Part shown: positions 8,402-41,664 of the stretch, piece after piece
Numbering within the stretch: position 1 is the stretch's first letter
Layout: every line of letters begins with the position of its first letter
DNA from: Streptomyces sp. ICBB 8177
GTDB taxonomy: Bacteria; Actinomycetota; Actinomycetes; Streptomycetales; Streptomycetaceae
Length of the DNA: 64,000 bases
Direction: 5' to 3'
Assembly: GCF_003144095.1 (NCBI RefSeq)
Contig: NZ_NSKH01000004.1
Coordinates: 228,727-292,726 of the forward strand
Position numbers and translations under genes: made by a program
Notes under the pieces: generated by a model
What the model was told of the DNA's origin: nothing
Databases searched by the model: none
The model's input: only the letters and a program-made list of their open reading frames with translations

Positions 8402-10783
<2,382 letters not shown>

Positions 10784-10838
10784 TCATCACCTCCTGTCAC
10801 AAGAAGGATCTCCCGTCCCTTGGCCCGTGCTGGAAACG

Positions 10839-10866
10839 ATCCTACGATAGACACAGTCCAAGTCAA
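10839..10866 (-). promoter_or_regulatory. Candidate katG promoter
   Basis: On the minus strand TTGACT is followed after 16 nt by TAGGAT, a good match to vegetative -35 and -10 elements, about 215 bp upstream of the katG start. The spacer contains TGGACTGTGTCTATCG, which may hold the Fur-family operator. The 326-bp gap between katG and the regulator gene (10625-10950) contains no other feature I can support. Confidence 0.5.
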
Positions 10867-10950
10867 GAAGCGCATCAGACCTGCGACCGGCCGAGGCCGC
10901 TCCATCCGGCCACCGGGGCCCGCTCGCGCTACCCGAAGAGGTGAACCGGC

Positions 10951-11376
10951 ATGAGCGACCTGCTGGAGCGACTGCGCGGCCGGGGATGGCGGATGACCGC
11001 GCAGCGCCGGGTCATCGCGCAGATCCTCGACGGCGACCACGTGCACCTGACCGCCGACGAGGTCCACACTCGCGCCGCCCGGCTGCTCCCCGAGATCTCC
11101 CGCGCGACGGTCTACAACACCCTGGGCGAACTGGTCGGCCTCGGCGAACTCGCGGAGGTCACCGTGGACGGCCGCGCGAAGCGCTACGACCCCAACGCCC
11201 GCCGCCCGCACCACCACCTGGTCTGCGCCCGCTGCGGAACCATCCGCGACGTCCACCCCACCGGCGACCCCCTCACCCGCCTCCCACCCGACCTGCGCTT
11301 CGGTTTCAGGGTCACCACGGCCGACATCGTCTACCGGGGCCTGTGCCCGGACTGCGCCGACGACACGCGGGCGTGA
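10951..11376 (+). CDS. Fur-family transcriptional repressor (FurA/CatR-like)
   Basis: A 141-residue Fur-superfamily protein. The N-terminal winged helix contains RMTAQRRVIAQIL, then SRATVYNTLGELVGLGELAEV (recognition helix). The C-terminal dimerisation/metal domain has the HHHLVCARCG site and a second CxxC in GLCPDCADD, giving a structural zinc site. It is divergent from katG, the arrangement in which such regulators (FurA, CatR, FurS) repress catalase genes until oxidised. The ATG at 10951 has GAAGAGG about 8 nt upstream. A short GC-rich hairpin follows at about 11380-11398. Confidence 0.92.
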   Translation: MSDLLERLRGRGWRMTAQRRVIAQILDGDHVHLTADEVHTRAARLLPEISRATVYNTLGELVGLGELAEVTVDGRAKRYDPNARRPHHHLVCARCGTIRDVHPTGDPLTRLPPDLRFGFRVTTADIVYRGLCPDCADDTRA

Positions 11377-15871: not shown

Positions 15872-16924
15872 TCAGCTGCCCGTGGCGGACTGCCAGGCGT
15901 CGACGTAGTCCGTCAGCTTGTCGTCGATGGCGTTCCAGTCCGGGCGGAAGACCTGGACACCGGACATGATCTTCGCCAGTGCCTGGGCGTTGGCGTCCGT
16001 GGCCCTGACGTCGGTACGGGACGCGAAGCCGCCGCCGAGCCGGGAGACCTCCTGCTGGACGGCCGGGGAGAGCAGGTAGTCCAGGAACTTCCGGGCGTTG
16101 GCCGCGTGCGGCGCGTTCTTCACCAGGCCGGCCGCGTACGGCAGGGAGAGCGTGGTCGGCGCGCCGCCGCCGTTCGGGGCGGGGAAGAAGATGCCCTGGT
16201 CCGGCATGGAGGCGGTATCGGCGTAGTTCATCTGCACGTCACCGTTGGCGACCAGCAGTTCGCCCTTGTCGACCTTGGCGGCGAGCGCGCCGGTGGAGCT
16301 GGACGGGCCGACGTTGACGGCCTGGAGCTTCTTGAGGAACGCCATGGCCCGGGACTCGCCGCCGAAGTCGTGCATCGCCTTGACCAGTACGGCCGTTCCG
16401 TCGCCCGCGACGCCGGGGGTGGAGTACTGGAGCTTGCCCTTGAACTTCGCCTCCAGCAGGTCGTTCCAGGTCTTCGGCGGCTGCGGGAGCTGCTTCTTGT
16501 CGTAGATGAAGCACAGGTAGTTGTCGACGACCGAGGTCCAGGTGCCGTCCGCCGCCTTGTCCGCGGCCGGGACCTGCGCCGAGCCCTGCGGCCGGTAGGC
16601 GGCGAGCAGCCCCTTGCTGTCCGCCTCCTGGATGAACGGGGGCAGGGTGACGACGACGTCGGCCTGGGTGTTGGACCGCTCGCGGGCCAGCCGCTGCACC
16701 ATCTCGCCGGAGCCGCCCTCCACGTAGTCGACCCTGATGCCGGTGCGGGCCTGGAAGTCCTTGAAGACCTGGTTGTAGAAGCCGTCACCGGTCTCGGACT
16801 TCAGGCCGTCGGCGCTGTAGACGGTGATCTCCCTGGCGTTGGCGGACGGCTGTCCCGCACAGGCGGTGAGCGAGGCGCCGAGGACGAGGGCGGTGAGGAC
16901 GGCGGTGACGGTGTGCCTGGGCAT
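15872..16924 (-). CDS. ABC transporter substrate-binding lipoprotein, 2-aminoethylphosphonate/iron type
   Basis: A 350-residue lipoprotein with lipobox LTAC-AGQ at about Cys22. The mature domain is a type II periplasmic-binding fold: REITVYSADGLKSETGDGFY, then VEGGSGEMVQRLARE, and the hinge segment SVVDNYLCFIYDKKQLPQPP. These features match the Fe3+/2-aminoethylphosphonate (PhnS-like) binding proteins. It is the last gene of a four-gene operon (ATPase, two permeases, binding protein), separated from the second permease by 52 bp. The ligand is probably 2-aminoethylphosphonate or a related small anion or ferric complex; sequence alone does not decide. No phosphonatase gene is nearby. Confidence 0.83.
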   Translation of the reverse strand: MPRHTVTAVLTALVLGASLTACAGQPSANAREITVYSADGLKSETGDGFYNQVFKDFQARTGIRVDYVEGGSGEMVQRLARERSNTQADVVVTLPPFIQEADSKGLLAAYRPQGSAQVPAADKAADGTWTSVVDNYLCFIYDKKQLPQPPKTWNDLLEAKFKGKLQYSTPGVAGDGTAVLVKAMHDFGGESRAMAFLKKLQAVNVGPSSSTGALAAKVDKGELLVANGDVQMNYADTASMPDQGIFFPAPNGGGAPTTLSLPYAAGLVKNAPHAANARKFLDYLLSPAVQQEVSRLGGGFASRTDVRATDANAQALAKIMSGVQVFRPDWNAIDDKLTDYVDAWQSATGS

Positions 16925-16976
16925 GGCGGAACGAACTCCTGGCGTGGTGAGGGGGTTGGACGGGGAGGGGTGTCGG

Positions 16977-17774
16977 TCAGCGGTACGAGGCGCGGTTGCG
17001 CACCCGGGAGACGGCGAGCAGCGCGAGCAGCGTGGTGGTCATCAGCACGACGGCCAGGGCGGCGCCGGTGAACAGCGACCCGCGGTCGGTGGCGCCGAAG
17101 ATGCTGACCGGCAACGGCGTCCAGCTCGGCGGGTACAGCATCATCGTGGCGCTCAACTCGCCCATCGACAGGGCGAATCCGAGCCCGGCGGCACCGGTGA
17201 GCGACGGCAGGAGCAGTGGCAGCCGTATCCGCCACAGCACACGGGCGGGGCTCGCGCCGAGGCTCGCCGCGATCTGTTCGCAGGCGGGGTCGAGCCGGGC
17301 CAGCGCGGCGGCGACCGACTGGTGGGCGAACGCGGTGACCAGCACGGCGTGCGCGGTGATGACGATGCCGGGTGTGCCGTTGAGCAGCAGGGGCGGCCTG
17401 GAGAACGCGACCAGCAGGGACAGGCCGACCACCACGGAGGGCACGGCGACCGGCAGGGTGAACAGCGCGTCCATCGCCACGCGGCCCGCGCGCCGCAGCC
17501 GGTGCGCCGCGAGGGCGGCCCAGGCGCCGACGAGCAGGGCGACGAGGCTCGCGGCCACGGCGGTCAGCAGGCTGACGGTCAGCGCGTGCGCCGCGTCGCC
17601 GCCGAGCGCCTCGCGGTAGTGCGTCACCGTGAGGCCCGAGGGAAGCGCGCCGCTCCAGTCGGTGGCGAACGAGGCGACCACGATCACCAGGAACGGCAGC
17701 GCGAACAACGGAAGGAACAGGACGAGGAAGACGGCCCGGGCGATGAGCCTCGCGGCCTTACCGTGCAGCAGCAC
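16977..17774 (-). CDS. ABC transporter permease 2 (2-aminoethylphosphonate/iron type)
   Basis: A 265-residue inner-membrane permease with about six hydrophobic helices. The EAA-like coupling loop CEQIAASLGASPARVLWRIR, then LPLLLP, contacts the ATPase. The GTG at 17774 was taken as start because CCGGAGG lies 5 nt before it. It overlaps the upstream permease gene by 17 nt, so translation is coupled. A longer in-frame extension inside the upstream gene lacks coding character. It pairs with the 17758-18651 permease to form the import channel. Confidence 0.85.
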   Translation of the reverse strand: MLLHGKAARLIARAVFLVLFLPLFALPFLVIVVASFATDWSGALPSGLTVTHYREALGGDAAHALTVSLLTAVAASLVALLVGAWAALAAHRLRRAGRVAMDALFTLPVAVPSVVVGLSLLVAFSRPPLLLNGTPGIVITAHAVLVTAFAHQSVAAALARLDPACEQIAASLGASPARVLWRIRLPLLLPSLTGAAGLGFALSMGELSATMMLYPPSWTPLPVSIFGATDRGSLFTGAALAVVLMTTTLLALLAVSRVRNRASYR

Positions 17775-18651
17775 GTGTGCCTCCGGACGCGGGAAGGGTA
17801 CGGGAGACGACGGCGCGGTAGAGGGTGTGCAGCGCCACCGAGACGACGACGCTGACCACCGCGACCACGCAGGCGCCCGGGTAGTCACCGTCGAGGATCG
17901 CCTTGCCGTACACCAGCATCGGCAGGGTGGTGACCCCCTTGGCCCCGGTGAACAGCACGATGCCGAACTCGTTCAGGCACATCACCAGCACCAGTGAGCC
18001 TCCGGCGGCCAGCGCGGGCAGCGCCTCGGGGAGGATGACGCGGCCGACGATGCGCGGCGCGCGGGCTCCCAGCGAGGAGGCGGCCTCGATCTGTGCGGTG
18101 TCGAGCCGTTCGAACGCGGCCAGCAGCGGGCGCATCACGAAGGGCGTGAAGTAGGTGATCTCGGCGAGCACGACGCCCGATGGAGTCTGGAGGAAGTGCA
18201 GCGGCCCGTTCGCGGCGCCGGTCGCCTCGGTCCACAGGCCGTTGACGATGCCGGTCGTCCCGTAGAGGAAGAGCAGGGCGAGGGTGATCAGGAACGAGGG
18301 GAAGGCGAGGAAGACGTCCACCACGCGGCTGAGCGCCTTGCCGCCGGGGAACGGCACGAACGCGATGACCAGCGCCAGGACGAAGCCCAGCACCAGGCAC
18401 CCGGCGGTGGCCGAGGCGGCGATCACCACCGTGTTGACCAGCGCCTCGCGGAACACCGCCGAGCCGAGCACCTGCCCGTACGCGGACAGGCCGTGGCCGC
18501 CGGAGTCCGGGGAGAGCGACTGCCACACGACGAGGGCCAGCGGGTAGAGGAAGGCCAGTGCCAGCGCGGCGAGGGGCGGCAGGGTCCACGCCCAGCGCGG
18601 CGCCGCGAGTCGGCGGCCGGTGGGTACGGCCCCGGCGGTGGCGCTAGTCAC
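17758..18651 (-). CDS. ABC transporter permease 1 (2-aminoethylphosphonate/iron type)
   Basis: A 297-residue permease starting at a GTG (18651) that overlaps the ATPase stop by 8 nt. It has six hydrophobic helices. The EAA loop is EAASSLGARAPRIVGRVILP, preceded by SFLITLALLFLYGTTG and FVMRPLLAAFERLD. Sequence style matches 2-aminoethylphosphonate permease subunits of actinomycetes. It forms the transmembrane pore with the next gene product. Confidence 0.86.
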   Translation of the reverse strand: MTSATAGAVPTGRRLAAPRWAWTLPPLAALALAFLYPLALVVWQSLSPDSGGHGLSAYGQVLGSAVFREALVNTVVIAASATAGCLVLGFVLALVIAFVPFPGGKALSRVVDVFLAFPSFLITLALLFLYGTTGIVNGLWTEATGAANGPLHFLQTPSGVVLAEITYFTPFVMRPLLAAFERLDTAQIEAASSLGARAPRIVGRVILPEALPALAAGGSLVLVMCLNEFGIVLFTGAKGVTTLPMLVYGKAILDGDYPGACVVAVVSVVVSVALHTLYRAVVSRTLPASGGTRAAAR

Positions 18652-19702
18652 GGGCCACCTCCCGCACCCGGCCGGACGTCAGCAGCACGGCGTCCCGCGG
18701 GGCGAAGTGCAGCGTCGTGGGGGCACCGGGAGCGGGCGGGTCGCGCAGCTCCGGGACGTCGGCGGCGACGCGGTGGCCCGCGACGTCCACGACCAGCCGG
18801 TGGGTCGCGCCGCGCCACTGGACCTCGGCGAGCGTGCCGCGCAGCGCGTTCGGGCCGTCGCCGAGGCCGACGCGGTGCGGCCGTACACACAAGGTCGCTG
18901 CGTCCGTATCGGTCAACGCGGGCGCGGCGACCTCCAGTTCGGTGCCGGCGAACCGGACGGTGCCGCCGCTCACGCTGACCGGCAGCAGGTTGGCGCCCCC
19001 GACGAACGAGGCGGTGAACTCGCTGCCCGGGCTGCGGTACAGGCCGCGTGGCGTGCCGCACTCCTTCAGCCGCGCGCAGTCCATGACCGCCACCCGGTCC
19101 GCGAGGGTGAGCGCCTCGATCTGGTCGTGCGTGACGTAGAGGATCGTCAGGTCCGGCAACTCCCGGTGCAGACGGCCGAGTTCGGCGAGCATGGCGGAGC
19201 GCAGGGCGGCGTCGAGCGCGGAGAGCGGCTCGTCGAGCAGCAGCACCTCGGGGCGGATGGCCAAGGCCCGTGCGATGGCGACGCGTTGCTGCTGGCCGCC
19301 GGACAGCTCGCGCGGATAGCGGCGGGCGTAGGCCGCCATGCCCGTCATCTCCAGCGCCCGCGCGACGCGTTCCGCGGTCTCCTGGCGTGGGGCGCGCCGG
19401 GCCTTCAGACCGAAGGCTACGTTGGCGTCGACCCGCAGGTGGGGGAAGAGCGCGTAGCTCTGCACCACCATGCCGATGCCGCGCTCGCGCGGGGGCAGGG
19501 CGGTGACGTCCCGGCCGCCGATGAGCACCCGTCCGCTCGCCGGGGTGACGAACCCGGCCACGGCCCGCAGCGCGGTGGTCTTGCCCGAGCCCGACGGCCC
19601 CAGCAGGGCCATGACCTCTCCGGGTTCGACGGCGAGGTCGAAGGCGTCCAGGACGGTCTGGCTTCCGTAGGTCACGGTGACGCGGTCGAAGCGGACGGAC
19701 AT
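18644..19702 (-). CDS. ABC transporter ATP-binding protein (2-aminoethylphosphonate/iron type)
   Basis: A 352-residue ATPase and first gene of the importer operon. Walker A is GPSGSGKTTAL, the Q-loop VVQSYALFPH, signature LSGGQQQRVAIARAL, Walker B VLLLDEPLSALD, and the switch His is in YVTHDQIEAL. A C-terminal TOBE-like domain (TLCVRPHRVGLGD, then GTLAEVQWRGATHRL) is typical of the polyamine/iron/phosphonate group. The start is placed at ATG 19702, 8 nt after GGAG; GTGs at 19705 and 19711 are alternatives. A HutC/DasR-like operator and a palindrome lie about 145-175 bp upstream. Confidence 0.9.
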   Translation of the reverse strand: MSVRFDRVTVTYGSQTVLDAFDLAVEPGEVMALLGPSGSGKTTALRAVAGFVTPASGRVLIGGRDVTALPPRERGIGMVVQSYALFPHLRVDANVAFGLKARRAPRQETAERVARALEMTGMAAYARRYPRELSGGQQQRVAIARALAIRPEVLLLDEPLSALDAALRSAMLAELGRLHRELPDLTILYVTHDQIEALTLADRVAVMDCARLKECGTPRGLYRSPGSEFTASFVGGANLLPVSVSGGTVRFAGTELEVAAPALTDTDAATLCVRPHRVGLGDGPNALRGTLAEVQWRGATHRLVVDVAGHRVAADVPELRDPPAPGAPTTLHFAPRDAVLLTSGRVREVARD

Positions 19703-19845
19703 CACGACCACTCCGCCGGGGTGAGGGGGCGCGCCGCCGGGATCCGGTCGGCCGTGTGGTTGACGACTGGCATGCCTGGAGCCTGTGGGCGGGGCGTTGA
19801 CCGTTCACGGCCGAGGGGTGACGGGATGGTGAACAGCCCGAGACT

Positions 19846-23347: not shown

Positions 23348-24859
23348 CTACCGGGTGCCCGCCAGGACCTCCGCCGCGGCCACCCCGGACGCGGCCGTGG
23401 CGCCGTTGGTGAAGATCTGGGCCGCGGCCGCTCCTGTCGGCACCGGCAGGCCCATCTCGACCACGATCGCGTCGGGACGGGCCGCCACCAGGTCTGCCAG
23501 CGCCCTGCCCATCCAGGCGTGCCGGGAGGCGTCCCGCACCACGACGACCAGGGGGCGGTCCTTGGCGGGGAGCAGCGCGTACTCCTCCAACGCCTTGGCT
23601 CCGTCATCGAGTTGGGCCGCGTGGACGCGCACGAACGTCGTGCCGGGCAGCCTTTCACGCAACGGCACCGCGACACCCCACGGGGTCTCCTTGCCGATGG
23701 CGAGGTTCGTGGAGGGCACCAACTCCACGACGTGCGGCGGGTGGTCGAGCGGCAGGGCGCCGTCGACCGCGCCGCTGGTGCGGATGGCGCGGCGGGCGGC
23801 GACGAATCCGATGTCCCCGCTGACCGGGTCGACGGGGGCGGCCTGCCCCAGCCGGGTCGACCAGTCGGCGAACTCCGCCACCCGGCGGGCCGCGTCGCGC
23901 AGGCGCTCCTCCGGCAACGTGCCGTCGGCGACCGCGTCGAGCAGGGCGCCGGAGAGCAGGGCGACAGTGGACTCCTCGGCGGTCTCGCCGCCCACGCAGA
24001 CGGCGTCCGCTCCGGCGGCTACGGCTCTGACCGTGGCGCCGCCGATGCCGTACAGGCCGGTCACCGCCCCCATCTCGATGGCGTCGGTGACGATCAGGCC
24101 GTCGAAGCCGAGTTCGCCGCGCAGCAGGTCGATCAGGATGCGGCGGCTGAGGGTGGCGGGCAGGTCGGGGTCGTAGGCCGGGACCAGCAGGTGGCCGCTC
24201 ATCACCGCGCGCACGCCGGCCTCCAGGGCGGCGCGGAACGGCGGCAGCGCCTGCTCCTGGATCTGGTCGAGGCCGGCCTCGTAGTGCGGCAGCCCGTGGT
24301 GCGAGTCCACGGCGACGTCGCCGTGGCCGGGGAAGTGCTTGGCGCAGGCGGCGACTCCGGAGGCCTGGAGGCCCCGGATCCAGGCGGCGGCGTGCCGGGA
24401 GACCAGCTTGGGGTCGACGCCGAAGGAGCGCACGCCGATGATCGGGTTGTCGGGGTTGGAGTTGACGTCCACGCTCGGCGCGTAGTCCAGGCTGACTCCG
24501 GCGGCGCGCAGCTGGCGGCCGAGGTCCTGGGCGACCGACTCGGTCAGCTCCACGTCGTCGACGGCGCCGAGCGCGAAGTTGCCGGGGCGGGACGAGCCGG
24601 TCGACGACTCGATGCGCGTGACATCTCCGGCCTCCTCGTCGATCGCGATGATCAACCCGGGGTTCTCGGCCCGCAGTTGAGTGGTGAGTCGGCTGACTTG
24701 CTGGGGGGAGGCGATGTTGCGCGAGAAGAGCACCACGGACGACAGGCCGTCGGCGATGTCCCGCAGCACCCAGTCCGGCGCCTGCGTCCCGACGAAGCCC
24801 GGCTGAAGGACGGAGAGCGCGAGACGTCGCAACTCCTTGCTGTGTTTGCTGGAGGACAT
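23348..24859 (-). CDS. Glycoside hydrolase family 3 beta-N-acetylhexosaminidase
   Basis: A 503-residue GH3 enzyme with the NagZ-type features: LIIAIDEEAGDVTRIE, the substrate/acid-base loop CAKHFPGHGDVAVDSHHGLP, and the nucleophile Asp in GLIVTDAIEMGAV. A C-terminal domain of ~150 residues is present. There is no signal peptide, so it acts in the cytosol on N-acetylglucosaminides such as chitobiose or cell-wall fragments. The ATG at 24859 is preferred; an upstream TTG/GTG extension lacks coding character. Its promoter (TTGACA at 24951-24956, minus strand) is overlapped by a DasR-like operator, fitting induction by N-acetylglucosamine metabolism. Confidence 0.93.
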   Translation of the reverse strand: MSSSKHSKELRRLALSVLQPGFVGTQAPDWVLRDIADGLSSVVLFSRNIASPQQVSRLTTQLRAENPGLIIAIDEEAGDVTRIESSTGSSRPGNFALGAVDDVELTESVAQDLGRQLRAAGVSLDYAPSVDVNSNPDNPIIGVRSFGVDPKLVSRHAAAWIRGLQASGVAACAKHFPGHGDVAVDSHHGLPHYEAGLDQIQEQALPPFRAALEAGVRAVMSGHLLVPAYDPDLPATLSRRILIDLLRGELGFDGLIVTDAIEMGAVTGLYGIGGATVRAVAAGADAVCVGGETAEESTVALLSGALLDAVADGTLPEERLRDAARRVAEFADWSTRLGQAAPVDPVSGDIGFVAARRAIRTSGAVDGALPLDHPPHVVELVPSTNLAIGKETPWGVAVPLRERLPGTTFVRVHAAQLDDGAKALEEYALLPAKDRPLVVVVRDASRHAWMGRALADLVAARPDAIVVEMGLPVPTGAAAAQIFTNGATAASGVAAAEVLAGTR

Positions 24860-25725: not shown

Positions 25726-26790
25726 ATGCGGGCGCTTGACAGCAGCTACTTGTATCGGGCCGCCTCGGACGTCCCCTACTTCAGCTCGGACGGCGAAACC
25801 TACCTGGCGCAGACGCAGTTGCGTGACCTGCGCAAGCGGCGGGAACTGCGGGTGCTGTCCGAGGAGGACTTCGCCTTCTGGCAGACCTACGGCTACGTGG
25901 TCGTCAAACAGGCGATTCCCACCGCCGCCGCGCAACGCCTGCTGGAATTCGCGTGGGACTTCCAGGGCCTGGACCCTCGGCGCCCCGAGACCTGGTACGA
26001 GGAGCGCACCTTCCGTTCCGACCTCGACCGGGACCTGTACGTCTACGGCTTCGTCGAGGCGTACCACCACCAGCTGCTGTGGGACAGCCGCCAGACGCGC
26101 CGGGTGTACGACGCCTTCGTGGACGTGTGGGACTGCGAGGAGCTGTGGGTGACCCTCGACCGGCTCAACCTCAACCCGCCCAACGTCAAGAACCGCGACC
26201 GCGCGCTGATCGAGGCCACGGACAAGGGCTTCGACATCGAGCTGCACTGGGACGTCGACACCACCCTCGGTGTCCTGCCGCAGCGCGTGCAGGGCATCAT
26301 CGCCCTGAGCGACACCGAGGAGGACCACGGCGGTTTCCAGTGCGCACCGGAGCTGTTCCGCAGGTTCGAGCGGTGGCGCGCGCTCCAGCCGGACGACCGC
26401 GACCCGATCCGGCCCGCGTTCGACCGTGACGAAATGCCCGTGGTCCGGCCGCAGTTGAAGGCGGGCGACCTGCTGATCTGGAACGGGCTGCTGGCCCACG
26501 GCGTGGCCCGCAACACCTCGCGCGACGGTGTGCGGGCCGTGCAGTACCTGTCCATGATGCCCGCGCTGGAATCCCACCGGACGCTGCGGGACTCCCGCGT
26601 CGACTCCTGGCGCCACCTGAGCACCCCGGACTGGAACCGGACGCTGCTGGGCGACGCCAGGAAGCACGAGTCCCTCAGGTACGGCACCGCCCGCCTGAAC
26701 GACCTGGGCGCCCGGCTGCTCGGGCTGGAGTCCTGGGGGCAGGAGAGCGACGCGGTGAGCGGGGAGCGGGTATGCGCCGAATCTGTCTGA
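25726..26790 (+). CDS. Fe(II)/2-oxoglutarate dioxygenase (phytanoyl-CoA dioxygenase-like)
   Basis: A 354-residue non-haem iron oxygenase and first gene of a five-gene operon. The double-stranded beta-helix holds the facial triad: H174 and D176 in LHWDVDTT, H258 in NGLLAHGVARN, with R270 in DGVRAVQYLSM as the 2OG anchor. EDHGGFQCAPEL fits the PhyH family. The N-terminal ~50 residues (Arg/Tyr-rich) are an unusual extension. The ATG at 25726 follows CGAGGAGCGATTGC. It probably hydroxylates an amino-acid-derived intermediate of the pathway (inference). It overlaps the next gene by 19 nt. Confidence 0.85.
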   Translation: MRALDSSYLYRAASDVPYFSSDGETYLAQTQLRDLRKRRELRVLSEEDFAFWQTYGYVVVKQAIPTAAAQRLLEFAWDFQGLDPRRPETWYEERTFRSDLDRDLYVYGFVEAYHHQLLWDSRQTRRVYDAFVDVWDCEELWVTLDRLNLNPPNVKNRDRALIEATDKGFDIELHWDVDTTLGVLPQRVQGIIALSDTEEDHGGFQCAPELFRRFERWRALQPDDRDPIRPAFDRDEMPVVRPQLKAGDLLIWNGLLAHGVARNTSRDGVRAVQYLSMMPALESHRTLRDSRVDSWRHLSTPDWNRTLLGDARKHESLRYGTARLNDLGARLLGLESWGQESDAVSGERVCAESV

Positions 26791-28082
26791 CCCTGCCCAC
26801 GAACAGGGCGTGCGCGCCAACCATCGCGGCGCTGGGCGAGGAGGCCGCGTACGCGGTGCGCCACTTCGACGTCGAGGTGCACTTGCTGGTACTGGACTCC
26901 AGTGAGGGGCAGGTGTTCGCCGAGCACGCCCGCGCGGTGCGTGACCTGCCCGCGGTGCCCGGCGTCGTCGCCCACCACTTCGGGGAGGCGGACCAGCGGG
27001 ACTTCCTGCGCCGGGTGATCGACGAGGCGGGCGTGGCCAAGCCCGATCTGGTGCTCGACCTCATGCTGCCCGACCGGCTTTCCTACGGCGCCTGCACCAA
27101 CCGGGCGTTCCTGCTGGCCGCCGCGCTGGGGTGCGAGTCGGTGCACCGCAGGGACTCCGACAGCCGCTACCAGGTCGCCGACGGCTCACCGGTGTTCCCC
27201 GTCCACCCGGAGCTGACGGCCCTGGGGCGCCGCGCGTCCGACGTGGCGCCGCTGGTCTCGGACAACGTGCTGGAGACGGCCCACGCCGGCAAGCCCGTCG
27301 CCATGGTGGGCGGCTCGTTCGTGGGCGAACTGTCCGTCGACATCGGGGAGATCCAGCGCCTCGACCCGGAGGTCTACCACGACGTGGTGAGCCTGTGGGC
27401 CCCGCTCGACTGGCCCGAACAGCGGAAGCGGGAGCTGGTCGAGGAGTCGTTCCGCGGTGCGGGCGACGTGGTGTTCACGGCGGACCACACGGTCCTCGGG
27501 CTGGTCGACCCGATGCGGGTCGACATGTGCAACATCGCCTTCCACCGCGTGCAGGAACGCATACCGCTGCCGCCGGCGACCGACACCATCGGCAGCGACT
27601 ACTTCCTCATCCACGTCGTCCACGACGCCACGCTCCCCGGCGTCCTGCACAACCGCGACATCGTCAACTACTACACACCCGAGCGCAGGACCGGGGCGGG
27701 CTTCAGCGCGTACCAGACCCGGTACGTGAAGTTCCTGCTGTCGATGCTGTACCTCGACTTCGTCTACGACCGCATGGCCGAGGCCGGTTCCGCGCTGCTC
27801 GACGAGGGCGGCGAGGTGCGTGCGCAGGTCGTCGCCGGCTTCGTGCGGGAGAGCACCGGTCTCGACCAGGCCGGCAACACCCACCGGCTGGACGTGCTCG
27901 AAGCGGCGTACCGCAAACTCGGCGGCAAGTACGCGGCGTTCGCCGAACACGTCGCCGCCGACCGGGAACGGCTGCTGCGCGAGGCCCGTCAGGACACCGA
28001 GGACTTCGCCCTCCTGCTGGAGGCGTGGGCGTCGCTGGTGGACGCGAGCAGGAAGGTGGACCCGTGCGCACACCGCCGGTGA
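26772..28082 (+). CDS. DUF6271-type protein, glycosyltransferase-like
   Basis: A 436-residue cytosolic protein of unknown biochemistry. It opens like a GT-A fold (MRRICLTLPTNRACAPTIAA, then HFDVEVHLLVLDSS) and carries a D-x-D candidate, D128-S-D130, in SVHRRDSDSRYQ. GSFVGELSVDIGEIQ and FTADHTVLGLVDPMRVDMC are further conserved-looking blocks. A helical C-terminus of ~130 residues is rich in Arg and Glu. I recognise the overall sequence as DUF6271-like. The DxD suggests metal/nucleotide-sugar binding, which is not established. It sits in the middle of a translationally coupled operon. Confidence 0.7.
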   Translation: MRRICLTLPTNRACAPTIAALGEEAAYAVRHFDVEVHLLVLDSSEGQVFAEHARAVRDLPAVPGVVAHHFGEADQRDFLRRVIDEAGVAKPDLVLDLMLPDRLSYGACTNRAFLLAAALGCESVHRRDSDSRYQVADGSPVFPVHPELTALGRRASDVAPLVSDNVLETAHAGKPVAMVGGSFVGELSVDIGEIQRLDPEVYHDVVSLWAPLDWPEQRKRELVEESFRGAGDVVFTADHTVLGLVDPMRVDMCNIAFHRVQERIPLPPATDTIGSDYFLIHVVHDATLPGVLHNRDIVNYYTPERRTGAGFSAYQTRYVKFLLSMLYLDFVYDRMAEAGSALLDEGGEVRAQVVAGFVRESTGLDQAGNTHRLDVLEAAYRKLGGKYAAFAEHVAADRERLLREARQDTEDFALLLEAWASLVDASRKVDPCAHRR

Positions 28083-29329
28083 CGAGCACCACGCCCCCTC
28101 ACGGCACCCGGCTGCGCCGCGCGCTGGCGGACGCCCCCGCGGACCGCCTGGTCTACGACCTCGCGGGCATCGAGGCCGCCTACGCGAACCTGGTACGCGA
28201 ACTGCCCGGTGTGTCGGTGCGGTTCGCGATGAAGGCGTGCCCCGTGGACGAGGTGCTCACCTGCCTGGCACGCCGGGGCTCGGGCGCCGACGCGGCCAGC
28301 CCGCAGGAGATCGCCCACGCGCTGCGCACCGGGGTGCCGGTCGAGCGCGTGCACTATGGCAACACCATCAAGTCCGACCGCGACATCGCGCACGCCTACC
28401 GGCTGGGCGTGCGCGACTTCGCCACCGACAGCATGGAGGACGTCGAGGCCATCGCGGCGCACGCCCCCGGCGCCCGGGTCTTCTGCCGGCTCGCCACGGA
28501 CGGCAAGGGCGCCCTGTGGGGGCTGAGCCACAAGTTCGGCTGCTCCGCCGGCGACGCCGTGCGCGTCCTGGAGCGGGCCCGCGACCTGGGCCTGACGCCC
28601 GCCGGGCTCTCCGTCCACGTGGGATCGCAGCAGATGACCGCCGAGGCGTGGGACGATGCCTGCGACCGGCTCGCCGATGTCCTGACCGCCCTCGACCGGC
28701 GAGGCGTGTTCCTCGATCACATCAATCTCGGCGGCGGGCTGCCCGCCGCCGGCTACCTGGACGCGTGGGGAACCCCGCTGGAACCGCCGCTGGACGAGAT
28801 CCTCGCCGCCGTCCGCCAGGGCATGCGGCGGCTGACGCGGGTGGCGGGCCGCCGCCTGGCGTTCCTCATCGAGCCCGGCCGCCACCTCGTCGCCGACCAC
28901 GGCGCCATCAGGGCCCACGTCCTGCGCCTGACCTCACGCGAGCGGCAGGACGGGGGACGCGCGCACTGGCTCTACCTGAGCTGCGGCAAGTTCAACGGCC
29001 TGTATGAGATGGACCAACTCCAGTACCGTCTGGTGTTCCCCACGCACTCCGGCGCCGACCTCGTGCCCGCCGTGGTGGCCGGGCCGACCTGCGACAGCGA
29101 CGACGCCTACGCGCACGACCACGGCCTGGTGCGGGTGCCCAGGGCGGTCGCCTCGGGAGATCCGGTGTGGATCCTCGCGAGCGGCGCCTACGCGACGAGC
29201 TACATGACCCGCGGGTTCAACGGCTTCAGCCCGCTCCCGCACGTCTGCCTGCCGCCCGACCGCGTGCCGCCGCCGCGCCTGCCGGAGCGCATCGACGACG
29301 TCACCGCCTGTGCGGGAGGACCGCGTTGA
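28064..29329 (+). CDS. Fold-type III PLP-dependent amino acid decarboxylase
   Basis: A 421-residue ornithine/diaminopimelate/arginine decarboxylase homologue. An alanine-racemase-like barrel carries PLP lysine K57 in VRFAMKACP, then GADAASPQEIAHAL, HVGSQQMTAEAW, the phosphate-binding INLGGGLPAAGY and FLIEPGRHLV. The C-terminal domain has the active-site Cys-Asp motif GPTCDSDDAYA and SGAYATSYMTRGFNGF. All catalytic positions are intact. The substrate is a basic or dibasic amino acid, possibly hydroxylated (inference). A GTG at 28064 follows GGAAGG and overlaps the previous gene by 19 nt; a GTGA overlap at 28079 is the alternative start. Confidence 0.9.
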   Translation: MRTPPVTSTTPPHGTRLRRALADAPADRLVYDLAGIEAAYANLVRELPGVSVRFAMKACPVDEVLTCLARRGSGADAASPQEIAHALRTGVPVERVHYGNTIKSDRDIAHAYRLGVRDFATDSMEDVEAIAAHAPGARVFCRLATDGKGALWGLSHKFGCSAGDAVRVLERARDLGLTPAGLSVHVGSQQMTAEAWDDACDRLADVLTALDRRGVFLDHINLGGGLPAAGYLDAWGTPLEPPLDEILAAVRQGMRRLTRVAGRRLAFLIEPGRHLVADHGAIRAHVLRLTSRERQDGGRAHWLYLSCGKFNGLYEMDQLQYRLVFPTHSGADLVPAVVAGPTCDSDDAYAHDHGLVRVPRAVASGDPVWILASGAYATSYMTRGFNGFSPLPHVCLPPDRVPPPRLPERIDDVTACAGGPR

Positions 29330-29853
29330 CCACGCAGACACCACGGGTGAGGCACGTACGCGGCGACGACTGGGACGCCATCGTCGCCCTGGAGTCCGCC
29401 GCGTACACCCCGCTCGGCCTGTCGGAGGGCCGGGCCGCGCTGGAATCCAGGGTCCGTGCCTCGCCCGCCACCTGCTTCGTGCTGGACCTCGCAGAACGCC
29501 TCGCCGGATACCTGCTGGCGCTGCCGTACCCGATGTTCCGGTATCCCGACCTGACACGCGCCGAGAGCGTGGAGTTCCGCACCGGCAACCTCCATCTGCA
29601 CGACCTCGTCGTCGCCGAGGACCTGCGCGGCTCGGGTCTGGCGAAGACGCTTTTGAGCGCTCTGTTCGCGAGCGCGCGATCACACGGGTTCGCCTCGGTC
29701 TCCCTCGTGGCCGTCGGCGGCAGCGCGCCCTTCTGGGCCTCCCAGGGCTTCACGGAGCACCCCGGCGTGGTGCCTCCGGACGGCTACGGGCCCGGGGCGC
29801 GGTACATGTCGCGGCCGGTGCGGGTCGAGGTCACGGCGGGAGCAGGAGGGTGA
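29326..29853 (+). CDS. GNAT N-acetyltransferase of the dioxygenase operon
   Basis: A 175-residue GNAT. The acetyl-CoA motif is LVVAEDLRGSGLAKTLLSAL (R-x-x-G-x-A), followed by SLVAVGGSAPFWASQGF. It starts at a TTG (29326) overlapping the decarboxylase stop as TTGA, with GGGAGGACCGCG in front, so it is coupled. In this setting it may acetylate the amine released by the decarboxylase, as a tailoring or self-protection step; this is inferred from context. Confidence 0.87.
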   Translation: MTTQTPRVRHVRGDDWDAIVALESAAYTPLGLSEGRAALESRVRASPATCFVLDLAERLAGYLLALPYPMFRYPDLTRAESVEFRTGNLHLHDLVVAEDLRGSGLAKTLLSALFASARSHGFASVSLVAVGGSAPFWASQGFTEHPGVVPPDGYGPGARYMSRPVRVEVTAGAGG

Positions 29854-29939
29854 GCGGCACGGGAGGCGCCGGCACACGCGTCGTCGGCACAGGGGTCGGC
29901 GGCGCGAGCGGCGGCCCGACGAGAGAGGGGTTGACCCGC

Positions 29940-31160
29940 ATGTGGCGCCCGCACGACCCGTTCCGCAAGGGGCAGTTGGCCATCGCCGCGTTGTTCTGCT
30001 CACTGGGCTTCCAGTACGCGACCTGGGCGTCGCGGCTGCCGTCCATCAAGGCGCACCTGGGCCTGACCACCGCCGAGGTGGGTCTGCTGCTGATGGCGAC
30101 GGGCGTGGGCGCGGCGGCTTCGTTCCCGCTGGTCGCCGCGCTGATGAAGCGGCTGGGATCGCGGCGTCTCGCCCTGGGCTCGGCGGTGTGCCTGGCCCTG
30201 CTGCTGCTCGTACTGGCCGCCGCGCCCGACTACCCGGTCGCGCTGGTGGTGATGGCCTGCGACGGGGTGCTGGTGGGATGCCTGAACGTGGCCATGAACG
30301 CCCAGGGCGCGGCGCTGGAGGTCCGTCACGGCCGCAACGCGATGGCGAAGCTCCATGCCACGTTCAGCGGTGGGTCGCTGTTCGCCGCGCTGCTGGCCTC
30401 CGGCATGAACGCCGTGACGTCCACGGTCGCCGTGCACTTCGGGGTGGCCACCGTCCTGCTGCTGGCACTCGCCGGGTACGCCCGCTCCGGCCTGCTGACG
30501 CGGGACGAGGCGAAGCCCGGCAGCGCCGAGGAGTCCGAGGCGGCGCCCGCCGACGGAGCACGGCGGCGGGCCGGTTGGTCCCTGCCGTCGCGGATGACGC
30601 TGTGGATGTGCTGCGCGATGGCGTTCGGCACCGTCACCGAGGGCGCGATGAACGACTGGTCCGCGCTCTACATGAAGGACGTCGCGAAGGCGTCGGCGGA
30701 ACTGGCGCCCATGGGCATCGCGGTCGTCTCCTGCATGATGGTCGTGGCCCGGCTCTTCGCGGACGGCTGGCGCGACCGCTGGGGCGACGGGCCGATCGTC
30801 CGCCTGGGCAGCGCGCTGGCGGGCGTGGGGCTGGCGCTCGCGCTGCTGAGCGGCGGCGTGGTGCCTGCGCTGGCCGGATTCGCCTGCGTGGGGCTCGGCA
30901 TCGCCGCGGTCACCCCGTGCGTCTACGTCGCGGCGGCCGGACAGGGCTCCGGCGTGCTGACGCTGGTCGCGGCCATGGGGACGACGGGGCTGCTGGGCGG
31001 CCCTCCGGTCATCGGTTTCGTCGCGAACGCCTGCGGCCTGGTGTGGGGGCTGGGCGCGGTGGCGGTCTCGGCGGGCATCGTCTCGTTGTGCGCCACGCAG
31101 ATCCGGTGGACCCGGTCGGCCGAACCCGTCAGTGGGGAGCCCGCGCCGGTCGACGTGTGA
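29940..31160 (+). CDS. MFS transporter
   Basis: A 406-residue, twelve-helix major facilitator of the YbjJ/sugar-efflux-like branch. It opens with FRKGQLAIAALFCSLGFQY, then ATWASRLPSIKAHLGLT (typical of this branch), MLLMATGVGAA-like helix 2, and DGVLVGCLNVAMNAQGA in the middle; a charged loop joins the halves. The ATG at 29940 is preceded by GAGAGAGG. A GTG at 29850, overlapping the GNAT stop as GTGA, would add a low-complexity N-terminus. As last gene of the operon it is the likely exporter of the product. Confidence 0.88.
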   Translation: MWRPHDPFRKGQLAIAALFCSLGFQYATWASRLPSIKAHLGLTTAEVGLLLMATGVGAAASFPLVAALMKRLGSRRLALGSAVCLALLLLVLAAAPDYPVALVVMACDGVLVGCLNVAMNAQGAALEVRHGRNAMAKLHATFSGGSLFAALLASGMNAVTSTVAVHFGVATVLLLALAGYARSGLLTRDEAKPGSAEESEAAPADGARRRAGWSLPSRMTLWMCCAMAFGTVTEGAMNDWSALYMKDVAKASAELAPMGIAVVSCMMVVARLFADGWRDRWGDGPIVRLGSALAGVGLALALLSGGVVPALAGFACVGLGIAAVTPCVYVAAAGQGSGVLTLVAAMGTTGLLGGPPVIGFVANACGLVWGLGAVAVSAGIVSLCATQIRWTRSAEPVSGEPAPVDV

Positions 31161-40722: not shown

Positions 40723-41664
40723 ATGCCGGACCGCCCCAGCCGCCGCACCCTGCTCGCCCTCGGGGCGGGCGCCGCCCTGGCCACGTGGCCGGGCGCCTCG
40801 GCGCACGCCGCCGACGCCCGGCGCCGCAACGCCGCTTCCCATGGAGGCGTTCGCCGTTCCGACAACGCTGTCGAGGCGCGGCTGCTCGACCTCGAAGCGC
40901 GACACTCCGCCCGCCTAGGCGTGTTCGCGCGCAACACGGCCACGGGCAGGACCGTGGCATACCGCGCCCGCGAGTTGTTCCCCATCTGCTCGGCGCACAA
41001 GGTGATCTCGGTCGCCGCCCTGCTCAAGGACCTGGACGTGCACGGCGACTTCCTGGCCGAGCGCATCACCTACACGGTGAAGGACACCACGGATTCGGGA
41101 TACGCGCCCGTGACCGGAACCCCGGATCACCTCGCACACGGCATGACGGTCGCGCAGTTGTGCGCCGCCGCGATCGAGTACAGCGACAACGCCGCGTCCA
41201 ACCTGATCGTGCGTCAACTCGGTTCGCCACAGGCCGTGACGCGCTTCTGCCGCTCGATCGGGGACCGTACGACGCGGCTGGACCGATGGGAGCCCGCGCT
41301 CAACTCGGCCGAGCCGTGGCGCGTCACGGACACCACCAGCCCGGTGGCCGTCGCGCGGACCTACGCCCGACTCGTGCTGGGCGGCGTGCTCTCCCGTGCG
41401 CACCGGAATCTGCTGACCGGATGGATGCTCGCCGACACCACGAGCGGACAGCGCTTCCGGGCGGGGCTGCCCCGCGACTGGCGTCTCGCCGACAAGACCG
41501 GCACCGGTGACTACGGCACGGCCAACGACGTCGGCATCGCCTGGACTCCGGACGGGACACCGGTGGTCCTCTCCGTGCTGTCCACGAAGCACGACCCCAA
41601 GGCCCAGGCCGACGAACCGCTGATCGCCGAGGTGGCGGCGGTACTGGCGGGGGCGATCGGCTGA
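40723..41664 (+). CDS. Class A beta-lactamase, Tat-exported
   Basis: A 313-residue serine beta-lactamase. A twin-arginine signal (PSRRTLLALGAGAALATWPG) is followed by a complete active site: S-x-x-K in FPICSAHKVISVAALL, S-D-N in EYSDNAASNL, E-x-x-L-N in RWEPALNSAEPWR (general base Glu166), and K-T-G in RLADKTGTGDYGTAND. Length and motifs match functional Streptomyces enzymes hydrolysing penicillins or cephalosporins. The ATG at 40723 follows GGAGGACCGCCC. No beta-lactam biosynthetic genes are in the window. Confidence 0.94.
   Translation: MPDRPSRRTLLALGAGAALATWPGASAHAADARRRNAASHGGVRRSDNAVEARLLDLEARHSARLGVFARNTATGRTVAYRARELFPICSAHKVISVAALLKDLDVHGDFLAERITYTVKDTTDSGYAPVTGTPDHLAHGMTVAQLCAAAIEYSDNAASNLIVRQLGSPQAVTRFCRSIGDRTTRLDRWEPALNSAEPWRVTDTTSPVAVARTYARLVLGGVLSRAHRNLLTGWMLADTTSGQRFRAGLPRDWRLADKTGTGDYGTANDVGIAWTPDGTPVVLSVLSTKHDPKAQADEPLIAEVAAVLAGAIG

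Follow-up and report, generated by a model that had tools for sequence, protein, structure and literature searches.

A five-gene Streptomyces operon that may make an exported, glycosylated basic-amino-acid metabolite

A stretch of 64,000 nucleotides from Streptomyces sp. ICBB 8177 (contig NZ_NSKH01000004.1, positions 228,727 to 292,726), referred to below as the window, carries at 25726-31160 five genes placed head to tail on the plus strand. They encode a PhyH-family 2-oxoglutarate (2OG)/Fe(II) dioxygenase, a protein of the DUF6271 family, a pyridoxal phosphate (PLP) decarboxylase resembling ornithine decarboxylase (ODC), a GNAT N-acetyltransferase and an exporter of the major facilitator superfamily (MFS). 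The reading favoured here, to which a probability of roughly 40% is given, is that of a biosynthetic operon, compact and patchy in its distribution, whose product would be a small, exported and glycosylated metabolite of a basic amino acid. From gene content, overlaps, co-conservation, a predicted fold and conserved sites we infer a possible route, including its substrates, the order of its steps, the sugar and the product. PhyH would hydroxylate a basic amino acid of the lysine or ornithine type, and DUF6271 would transfer onto the new hydroxyl a sugar from a common nucleoside diphosphate (NDP) sugar, UDP-N-acetylglucosamine (UDP-GlcNAc) being the favoured donor. The decarboxylase would then take away the α-carboxylate, GNAT would N-acetylate an amine, either as tailoring or as self-protection, and the MFS protein would export the product. 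A NagZ-like GH3 hexosaminidase, probably cytoplasmic and encoded beside the operon in 49 of 80 loci, could remove the N-acetylhexosamine again. The first-pass annotation of this DNA had proposed a small amino-acid-derived pathway with export, in an operon free of nonribosomal peptide synthetase, polyketide synthase and terpene core genes, and the sequences support this outline, the chemistry remaining putative. Its list of oxidation, decarboxylation, acetylation and export is kept but appears incomplete, since the predicted GT-A fold and conserved site of DUF6271 suggest that glycosyl transfer should probably be added.

Layout and co-conservation of the operon

The PhyH gene (25726-26790, 354 aa; Pfam PhyH 1.3e-11) shares 19 nt (26772-26790) with the DUF6271 gene (26772-28082, 436 aa; Pfam PF19787 4e-236). 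The decarboxylase gene (28064 or 28079-29329; Pfam Orn_Arg_deC_N 9.7e-42) overlaps DUF6271 by another 19 nt if it begins at GTG 28064, a start to which the Shine-Dalgarno-like GGAAGGTGG is better suited than to 28079. This start is not certain, because a start with a 4-nt overlap is possible in 52 of 78 loci and the window itself offers one in the GTGA at 28079. The GNAT gene (29326-29853; Pfam Acetyltransf_1 4.5e-11) opens with TTG within a TTGA overlap. The MFS gene, which ends at 31160 (Pfam MFS_1 8.9e-24), could start at the overlapping GTGA at 29850; the ATG at 29940 is likelier, since GAGAGAGGGG stands before it, and leaves an 86-nt gap after GNAT. Homology of the MFS gene was compared from ATG 29940 onward only. 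The overlapping or nearly overlapping arrangement first described is borne out by the 19-nt PhyH/DUF6271 overlap, the TTGA at 29326 and the GTGA at 29850, with two amendments: the decarboxylase start is open between 28064 and 28079, and the MFS start is more likely the non-overlapping one. None of the five proteins has an NCBIfam match above cut-off.

A profile scan of 84,980 species genomes with the DUF6271 alignment returned 343 encoding stretches, not necessarily distinct loci, the closest protein being that of Streptantibioticus parmotrematis (92% identical). Locus counts given here refer to the best 80 of the 343 candidate stretches, with at most 10 kb of flank on each side, and are biased towards close relatives. 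PhyH, the decarboxylase and GNAT are present in every one of the 80 loci and MFS in 79, the sole locus without it (L109) stopping at a contig border. Strict one-strand gene order is maintained in 76; the exceptions have the decarboxylase upstream (L091 and L104), the MFS gene reversed (L048) or the locus cut (L109). The exact 19-nt PhyH/DUF6271 overlap recurs in 63 of the 80 loci, and pairwise dN/dS (nonsynonymous to synonymous substitution ratio) between the window and its nearest relative, L035, lies between 0.14 and 0.37 across the five genes; both results argue for a set held together beyond chance. Conservation of single residues was read from alignments of 68 (PhyH), 72 (MFS), 80 (decarboxylase), 81 (GNAT) and 81 (DUF6271) sequences, window included, leaving out loci with a stop in the tblastn-derived frame or with a frame on the other strand.

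Co-occurrence was also examined in a panel of 100 genomes around that of the window, own genome included, 61 of which belong to the family. DUF6271 was present in 28 of them, a patchy distribution, PhyH in 27 and the decarboxylase in 25 (66-100% identical; an extra 41% match in genome G017 was excluded from the count). Every panel genome with PhyH or the decarboxylase also has DUF6271. Fisher p values for co-occurrence with DUF6271, uncorrected for phylogeny, were about 1e-20 for the decarboxylase and 1e-23 for PhyH over the panel, and 5e-14 and 2e-16, respectively, inside the family. In one genome (G040) the set is split, PhyH and decarboxylase lying on one contig and DUF6271, GNAT and MFS on another, and the DUF6271 operon is also found on megaplasmids. 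A lack of co-conservation among the five homologues, which the first-pass annotation had named as the finding that would speak against its pathway, was looked for with the opposite result (80 of 80 loci; 25-27 of 28 panel genomes), and the neighbourhood search that it had recommended places DUF6271 together with the ODC-like decarboxylase in all 80 best loci.

Predicted fold and conserved site of DUF6271

By its AlphaFold2 model (mean predicted local distance difference test, pLDDT, 91.3), DUF6271 has a GT-A fold, and its metal/nucleotide site is conserved. The best solved match found by Foldseek was MtdL, a mutase of family GT75 (E 4e-8), and VIA-align matched model and MtdL with Z 23.8 and a root mean square deviation of 3.3 over 314 aligned residues. 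The next matches were rice UAM2, also GT75 (Z 21.5), and, as the next family, mannosyl-3-phosphoglycerate synthase (17.6). Z reached 8 or more in 630 of 999 aligned chains, and the 50 chains listed are sugar-nucleotide transferases or mutases by title, except for a few whose titles do not mention a function. All 81 sequences aligned have T10, D42, D128, D130, D276, H293 and R295, with D128 and D130 in the motif R127-D128-x-D130 and D276 in T272-x-G274-x-D276; the distant Apilactobacillus protein (21% identical) retains T10, D42, D130, D276 and H293. According to the MtdL report (PMC9937993), Asp109-111, His287 and Arg289 of that enzyme serve the metal and diphosphate and Thr13 and Asp40 the base; Asp260 is put forward as base catalyst, and the mutase requires Arg159 as its nucleophile. 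A GT75 protein found here (L142) has these functional residues at identical numbers. It is plausible that Asp111, His287, Thr13 and Asp40 of MtdL correspond to D130, H293, T10 and D42 of DUF6271, equivalences established by motif order and fold, not by superposed coordinates. Predicted fold and conserved residues together indicate a GT-A fold with an NDP-sugar site; hence, of the initial description of a D-x-D motif with unknown chemistry, the motif stands and the chemistry is narrowed to that of an enzyme combining the GT-A fold with conserved residues for metal and nucleotide sugar.

The prominence of GT75 among the structural matches (Z 23.8 and 21.5 against 17.6 for the next family) could mean that DUF6271 modifies NDP-sugars, as a mutase like MtdL and UAM or in some other way, and so provides a furanosyl donor. 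This seems quite improbable. MtdL requires Arg159 (PMC9937993), and between the DxD and TxGxD motifs of DUF6271 (residues 131-271) no arginine is invariant in the 81 sequences, the most frequent being R249 (76 of 81) and R220 (68 of 81). By motif order, Arg257 of MtdL has no clear DUF6271 counterpart, and the operon encodes no second glycosyltransferase that could use a furanosyl donor. Plain membership of GT75 was rejected, as an invariant equivalent of Arg159 and a match to Pfam RGP (PF03214) are both lacking, PF19787 being the sole Pfam report at E up to 0.1. DUF6271 is thus probably, judging from the model, a transferase and not a GT75-type mutase.

Partner enzymes and the upstream GH3 hexosaminidase

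Among the proteins of known structure, the nearest relative of the decarboxylase by sequence is the lysine/ornithine decarboxylase 2plj (5e-36), presumably from Vibrio. The motifs of fold type III (group IV) are present, namely the PLP lysine, HVGSQ, GGG, EPGR and Cys-Asp, with K57, H185 and D344 conserved in 80 of 80 sequences and C343 in 79. In ODC the amine of the substrate is held by two carboxylates, D332 and D361. The aspartate of the D361 type, in a CDSDD motif, is present in 80 of 80 sequences and is the only one of the two carboxylates of an ornithine/lysine decarboxylase to have an equivalent here. A carrier-protein glutamyl decarboxylase of the BtrK type was considered and rejected, given a much weaker match (1e-15 for BtrK against 5e-36 for the lysine/ornithine enzyme) and an operon without carrier protein.

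In 14 bacterial and haloarchaeal sequences H174, D176, H258 and R270 of the PhyH protein do not vary, and they are conserved in the 68-sequence set as well; we take H174-x-D176...H258 to be the Fe triad and R270 the 2OG-binding arginine. A second Pfam match is to Gig2-like (8.3e-8), and the AlphaFold2 model (pLDDT 36.7) is too low in confidence for use. Members of its subfamily, 38-48% identical, were found in haloarchaea, in Roseateles and Agrobacterium and in a different Streptomyces cluster. A search of 396 genomes of the phylum with a PhyH relative gave matches in DUF6271-bearing genomes only. With members so distributed across the subfamily, the substrate of PhyH may be a common metabolite. 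On an Agrobacterium salinitolerans plasmid (L137:5602-7888) the PhyH relative overlaps a gene for a 459-aa protein that contains NDID, a DxD-like motif, and matches no Pfam family, in a neighbourhood with two carbamoyltransferases and a glycosyltransferase; in Streptomyces sp. NBC_01431 (L138:4553-14187) the relative stands with a SPASM radical SAM protein, two carbamoyltransferases, an MFS protein and a phenazine-inducer-like gene. Such occurrences outside DUF6271 operons, for example in haloarchaea and Roseateles, would also suit an operon serving primary or protective metabolism, such as a polyamine-like compatible solute or amino-acid detoxification, in place of a secreted specialised metabolite. 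We regard this as improbable, since patchiness (28 of 100 genomes), megaplasmid location, a dedicated MFS exporter and variants with carrier proteins fit specialised metabolism.

GNAT could be a self-resistance enzyme and not a biosynthetic one, the free amine being the active form and acetylated inside the producer. Its gene and that of MFS are the last two, and GNAT has diverged from the nearest relative more than the other four proteins have (83.7% identity, dN/dS 0.37). Against this, DUF6271 and GNAT are kept paired in six loci without adjacent PhyH or decarboxylase (L122, L124-L127 and L130; MFS also in L130 only), an arrangement that suits a biosynthetic pair, and the decarboxylase is located elsewhere in all six genomes. 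Self-resistance as the role of GNAT is regarded as a minor possibility.

Divergent from the operon, on the minus strand at 23348-24859, lies a facultative sixth member, a gene for a NagZ-like GH3 β-N-acetylhexosaminidase (PF00933 1.8e-71; NCBIfam β-N-acetylhexosaminidase 4.5e-55, with a score of 187.1, below the cut-off of 207). The motifs KHFPGHG...DSH, presumably the catalytic dyad, and an aspartate motif, which we take to carry the nucleophile, are found at residues 174, 185 and 258. Of the 80 loci, 51 have a GH3 homologue in their flanks, 35 of them divergent, 14 co-oriented just upstream and two about 7 kb off. With the gene adjoining 49 of the 80 loci, N-acetylhexosamine is hinted at as the sugar, and this link is the reason for favouring UDP-GlcNAc as donor; GH3 may be part of the functional set in many strains. 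A FastTree analysis was made of 70 GH3 proteins, comprising 36 divergent-linked, 14 co-oriented-linked, two at 7 kb, four unlinked operon-type and 14 hand-picked genomic copies, and omitting two short linked matches (L089 and L094). Among the linked proteins, 36 made up a divergent clade (support 0.93) and six a co-oriented one (1.0); one was a single case, and two further co-oriented groups, of three and four, were placed within the clade of ordinary genomic copies. The tree makes three or more independent origins of the linkage to the operon probable. The two linked groups in the ordinary clade may represent a single event, as they are separated with low support (0.05). Pure shared synteny was rejected as an explanation of the neighbourhood, as GH3 appears in two orientations and several lineages and, besides operon and GH3, the largest called gene family is common to 14 of 81 loci (shadow frames set aside). 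Seven of the 14 co-oriented GH3 proteins fall in the ordinary clade, hence part of the linkage could reflect insertion beside a resident gene. Within the panel, operon-type GH3 (at least 68% identity, a limit set after the list was seen) occurs in 15 genomes, beside the operon in 11, elsewhere in one operon-bearing genome and in three without DUF6271 (Fisher p with DUF6271 8e-6 over 100 genomes).

Wider contexts, significance and comparison with known systems

PhyH and DUF6271 are found without decarboxylase and GNAT matches in L031, L034, L120 and L128. In genomes G049 and G015 the decarboxylase is about 21-22 kb away from the DUF6271-GNAT pair. Beside that of G015 (L145) Pfam identifies E1 alpha/beta, a ketosynthase, an AMP-ligase, a flavin mononucleotide (FMN) dehydrogenase, an aminotransferase, a glyoxalase-fold protein and another PhyH, and the G049 stretch (L147) resembles it by eye, Pfam having been run on L145 alone. 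Both gene sets also include small carrier-like proteins and could, we presume, make hydroxyphenylglycine-like units. A 69-aa remnant of an operon-type PhyH overlaps the decarboxylase start in G049 (L147:7569-7778; 47% identical over 60 aa) and is apparently a decayed copy; in G043 the decarboxylase match is reduced to a 53-aa piece between DUF6271 and GNAT (L131:10547-10705). In Streptomyces clavuligerus (L031), PhyH and DUF6271 are followed by a condensation-domain gene, an MFS gene and two annotated transketolase genes. Divergent genes there encode an aminoacyl-tRNA synthetase (aaRS)-like protein (26.1 bits) and a carrier-protein-like one (18.7 bits), both just under Pfam cut-offs, together with a phosphopantetheinyl transferase; L120 and L128 resemble L031 in gene content by eye. 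The most distant context is a plasmid of Apilactobacillus kunkeei (OX335191.1; L033:5498-15896), whose DUF6271 (19.7% identity by tblastn; PF19787 2.1e-27) is accompanied by MFS, two ddl-annotated genes, an aaRS-like ligase and a carrier protein (both above Pfam cut-offs), a methyltransferase, an IlvE-type aminotransferase, transketolase A/B and a 302-aa protein that matches no Pfam family. Six A. kunkeei plasmid records contain DUF6271, and a phage search with the Apilactobacillus protein gave no match.

These contexts bear on the strongest rival on chemistry, according to which DUF6271 uses its GT-A fold to transfer another activated group, as in nucleotide-activated amino-acid or carrier-protein tailoring, and the product is a sugar-free hydroxylated, decarboxylated and N-acetylated diamine. 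The company of aaRS-like, carrier-protein or carrier-protein-like and transketolase genes in both S. clavuligerus L031 and Apilactobacillus, with a condensation domain in the former, agrees with this proposal, as does the fact that GH3 is the sole sugar gene conserved beside the operon. On the other side stand the DxD, base-binding aspartate and metal histidine, invariant in all 81 DUF6271 sequences, and the recurrent hexosaminidase neighbour. On balance a sugar-free product is judged unlikely.

Several results weigh against a glycosylated basic-amino-acid metabolite. Around the operon, no gene family for sugar nucleotides is conserved across the 81 loci, and 29 of the 80 lack GH3 in the flank examined, some flanks being short. 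The association of GH3 with DUF6271 is modest inside the family (Fisher p 0.002), with three of the 15 GH3 genomes devoid of DUF6271. By eye, the GH3 N-termini inspected, that of the window and those of ten loci, lack a signal sequence; from this the enzyme probably acts in the cytoplasm, and an extracellular unmasking step is unlikely. The first aspartate of the DxD is replaced in three more distant proteins of the 18 aligned from the panel (N128 in L026, L027 and L030), D130 and H293 being kept. Profile comparison of DUF6271 with GT75 (L142 and two others) detected no relationship at the level of sequence (probability 0.1%), the short alignment lining up the DxD motifs in a match that is not significant. 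In searches of PDB sequences PhyH, DUF6271, GNAT and MFS had no close structure, the decarboxylase being the sole protein with a close solved relative. Finally, the position of ODC D332 in the decarboxylase is occupied by Cys (70), Val (7), Ala (2) or Ser (1) in the 80 sequences and is never acidic. With this carboxylate replaced, plain ornithine or lysine is not assured as substrate, and the far end of the true substrate, as far as the alignment indicates, probably differs from theirs.

We rate the operon as a compact gene cluster whose product would be a tailored amino-acid metabolite and in which one enzyme family, DUF6271, had no assigned function. No description of it was found in the literature searched, subscription literature being outside the scope, and the name DUF6271 appears in none of the texts; within the same limits, the initial view that this is not a recognised characterised cluster is upheld. 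The GT-A fold and likely substrate class of DUF6271, the GH3 linkage and the carrier-protein contexts are new, and the proposed chemistry is directly testable. With 343 stretches in 84,980 species genomes and 28 of 100 panel genomes, this pathway may be among the more common undescribed ones by which streptomycetes make small molecules. It is encoded by an operon without the core genes on which cluster detection usually relies, and DUF6271 links actinomycete pathways to a plasmid-borne cluster in a bee symbiont. A bolder and rather doubtful extension would make it a new class of core-gene-free cluster, widespread in Streptomycetaceae. A hydroxylated basic amino acid would be N-acetylhexosaminylated by DUF6271 as a new GT-A family and then decarboxylated and acetylated. 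A NagZ-like hexosaminidase, recruited alongside, would control masked and unmasked forms, and the DUF6271 step would be reused in carrier-protein pathways, including those of honeybee lactobacilli.

Elsewhere in the window are genes of a PhnS/PhnT-like ATP-binding cassette transporter for 2-aminoethylphosphonate (15872-19711), a class A β-lactamase gene (40921-41664; 277.9 bits against the NCBIfam class A cut-off of 200) and a catalase-peroxidase gene, over its NCBIfam cut-off, with a divergent gene that is Fur-like by eye (8402-11376).

The proposed pathway shares elements with several known systems. The GT75 mutases MtdL/Hyg20 and plant UAM/RGP (PMC9937993) resemble DUF6271 in a GT-A fold, predicted for DUF6271, over nearly the whole chain and in the order of DxD, metal histidine and base-binding aspartate; DUF6271 differs from them in having no sequence-level match, no PF03214 and no invariant arginine in the region of the nucleophile Arg159. 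The operon decarboxylase shares fold family, PLP lysine, HVGSQ, GGG, EPGR and Cys-Asp with 2plj and ODC and differs in the carboxylate equivalent to D332, replaced mostly by Cys. PhyH has the Pfam PhyH and Gig2-like matches of the phytanoyl-CoA dioxygenase family and forms a distinct subfamily in it with no close solved relative. In the collagen system LH3/ColGalT1, which hydroxylates lysine and glycosylates the resulting hydroxylysine, 2OG-dependent hydroxylation is likewise followed by glycosylation with a GT-A enzyme. The analogy is one of logic only, as LH3/ColGalT1 act on protein lysines and match DUF6271 weakly in structure, and membership is not claimed. In self-protection of the oleandomycin type, one pathway has both a glycosyltransferase for glycosylation and a glycosidase for deglycosylation linked to it. 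Although the GH3 of the operon, unlike the glycosidase of that type, is NagZ-like, without signal peptide and facultative, the two systems are alike in tying a glycosyltransferase, here the putative one, and a glycosidase to a single pathway.

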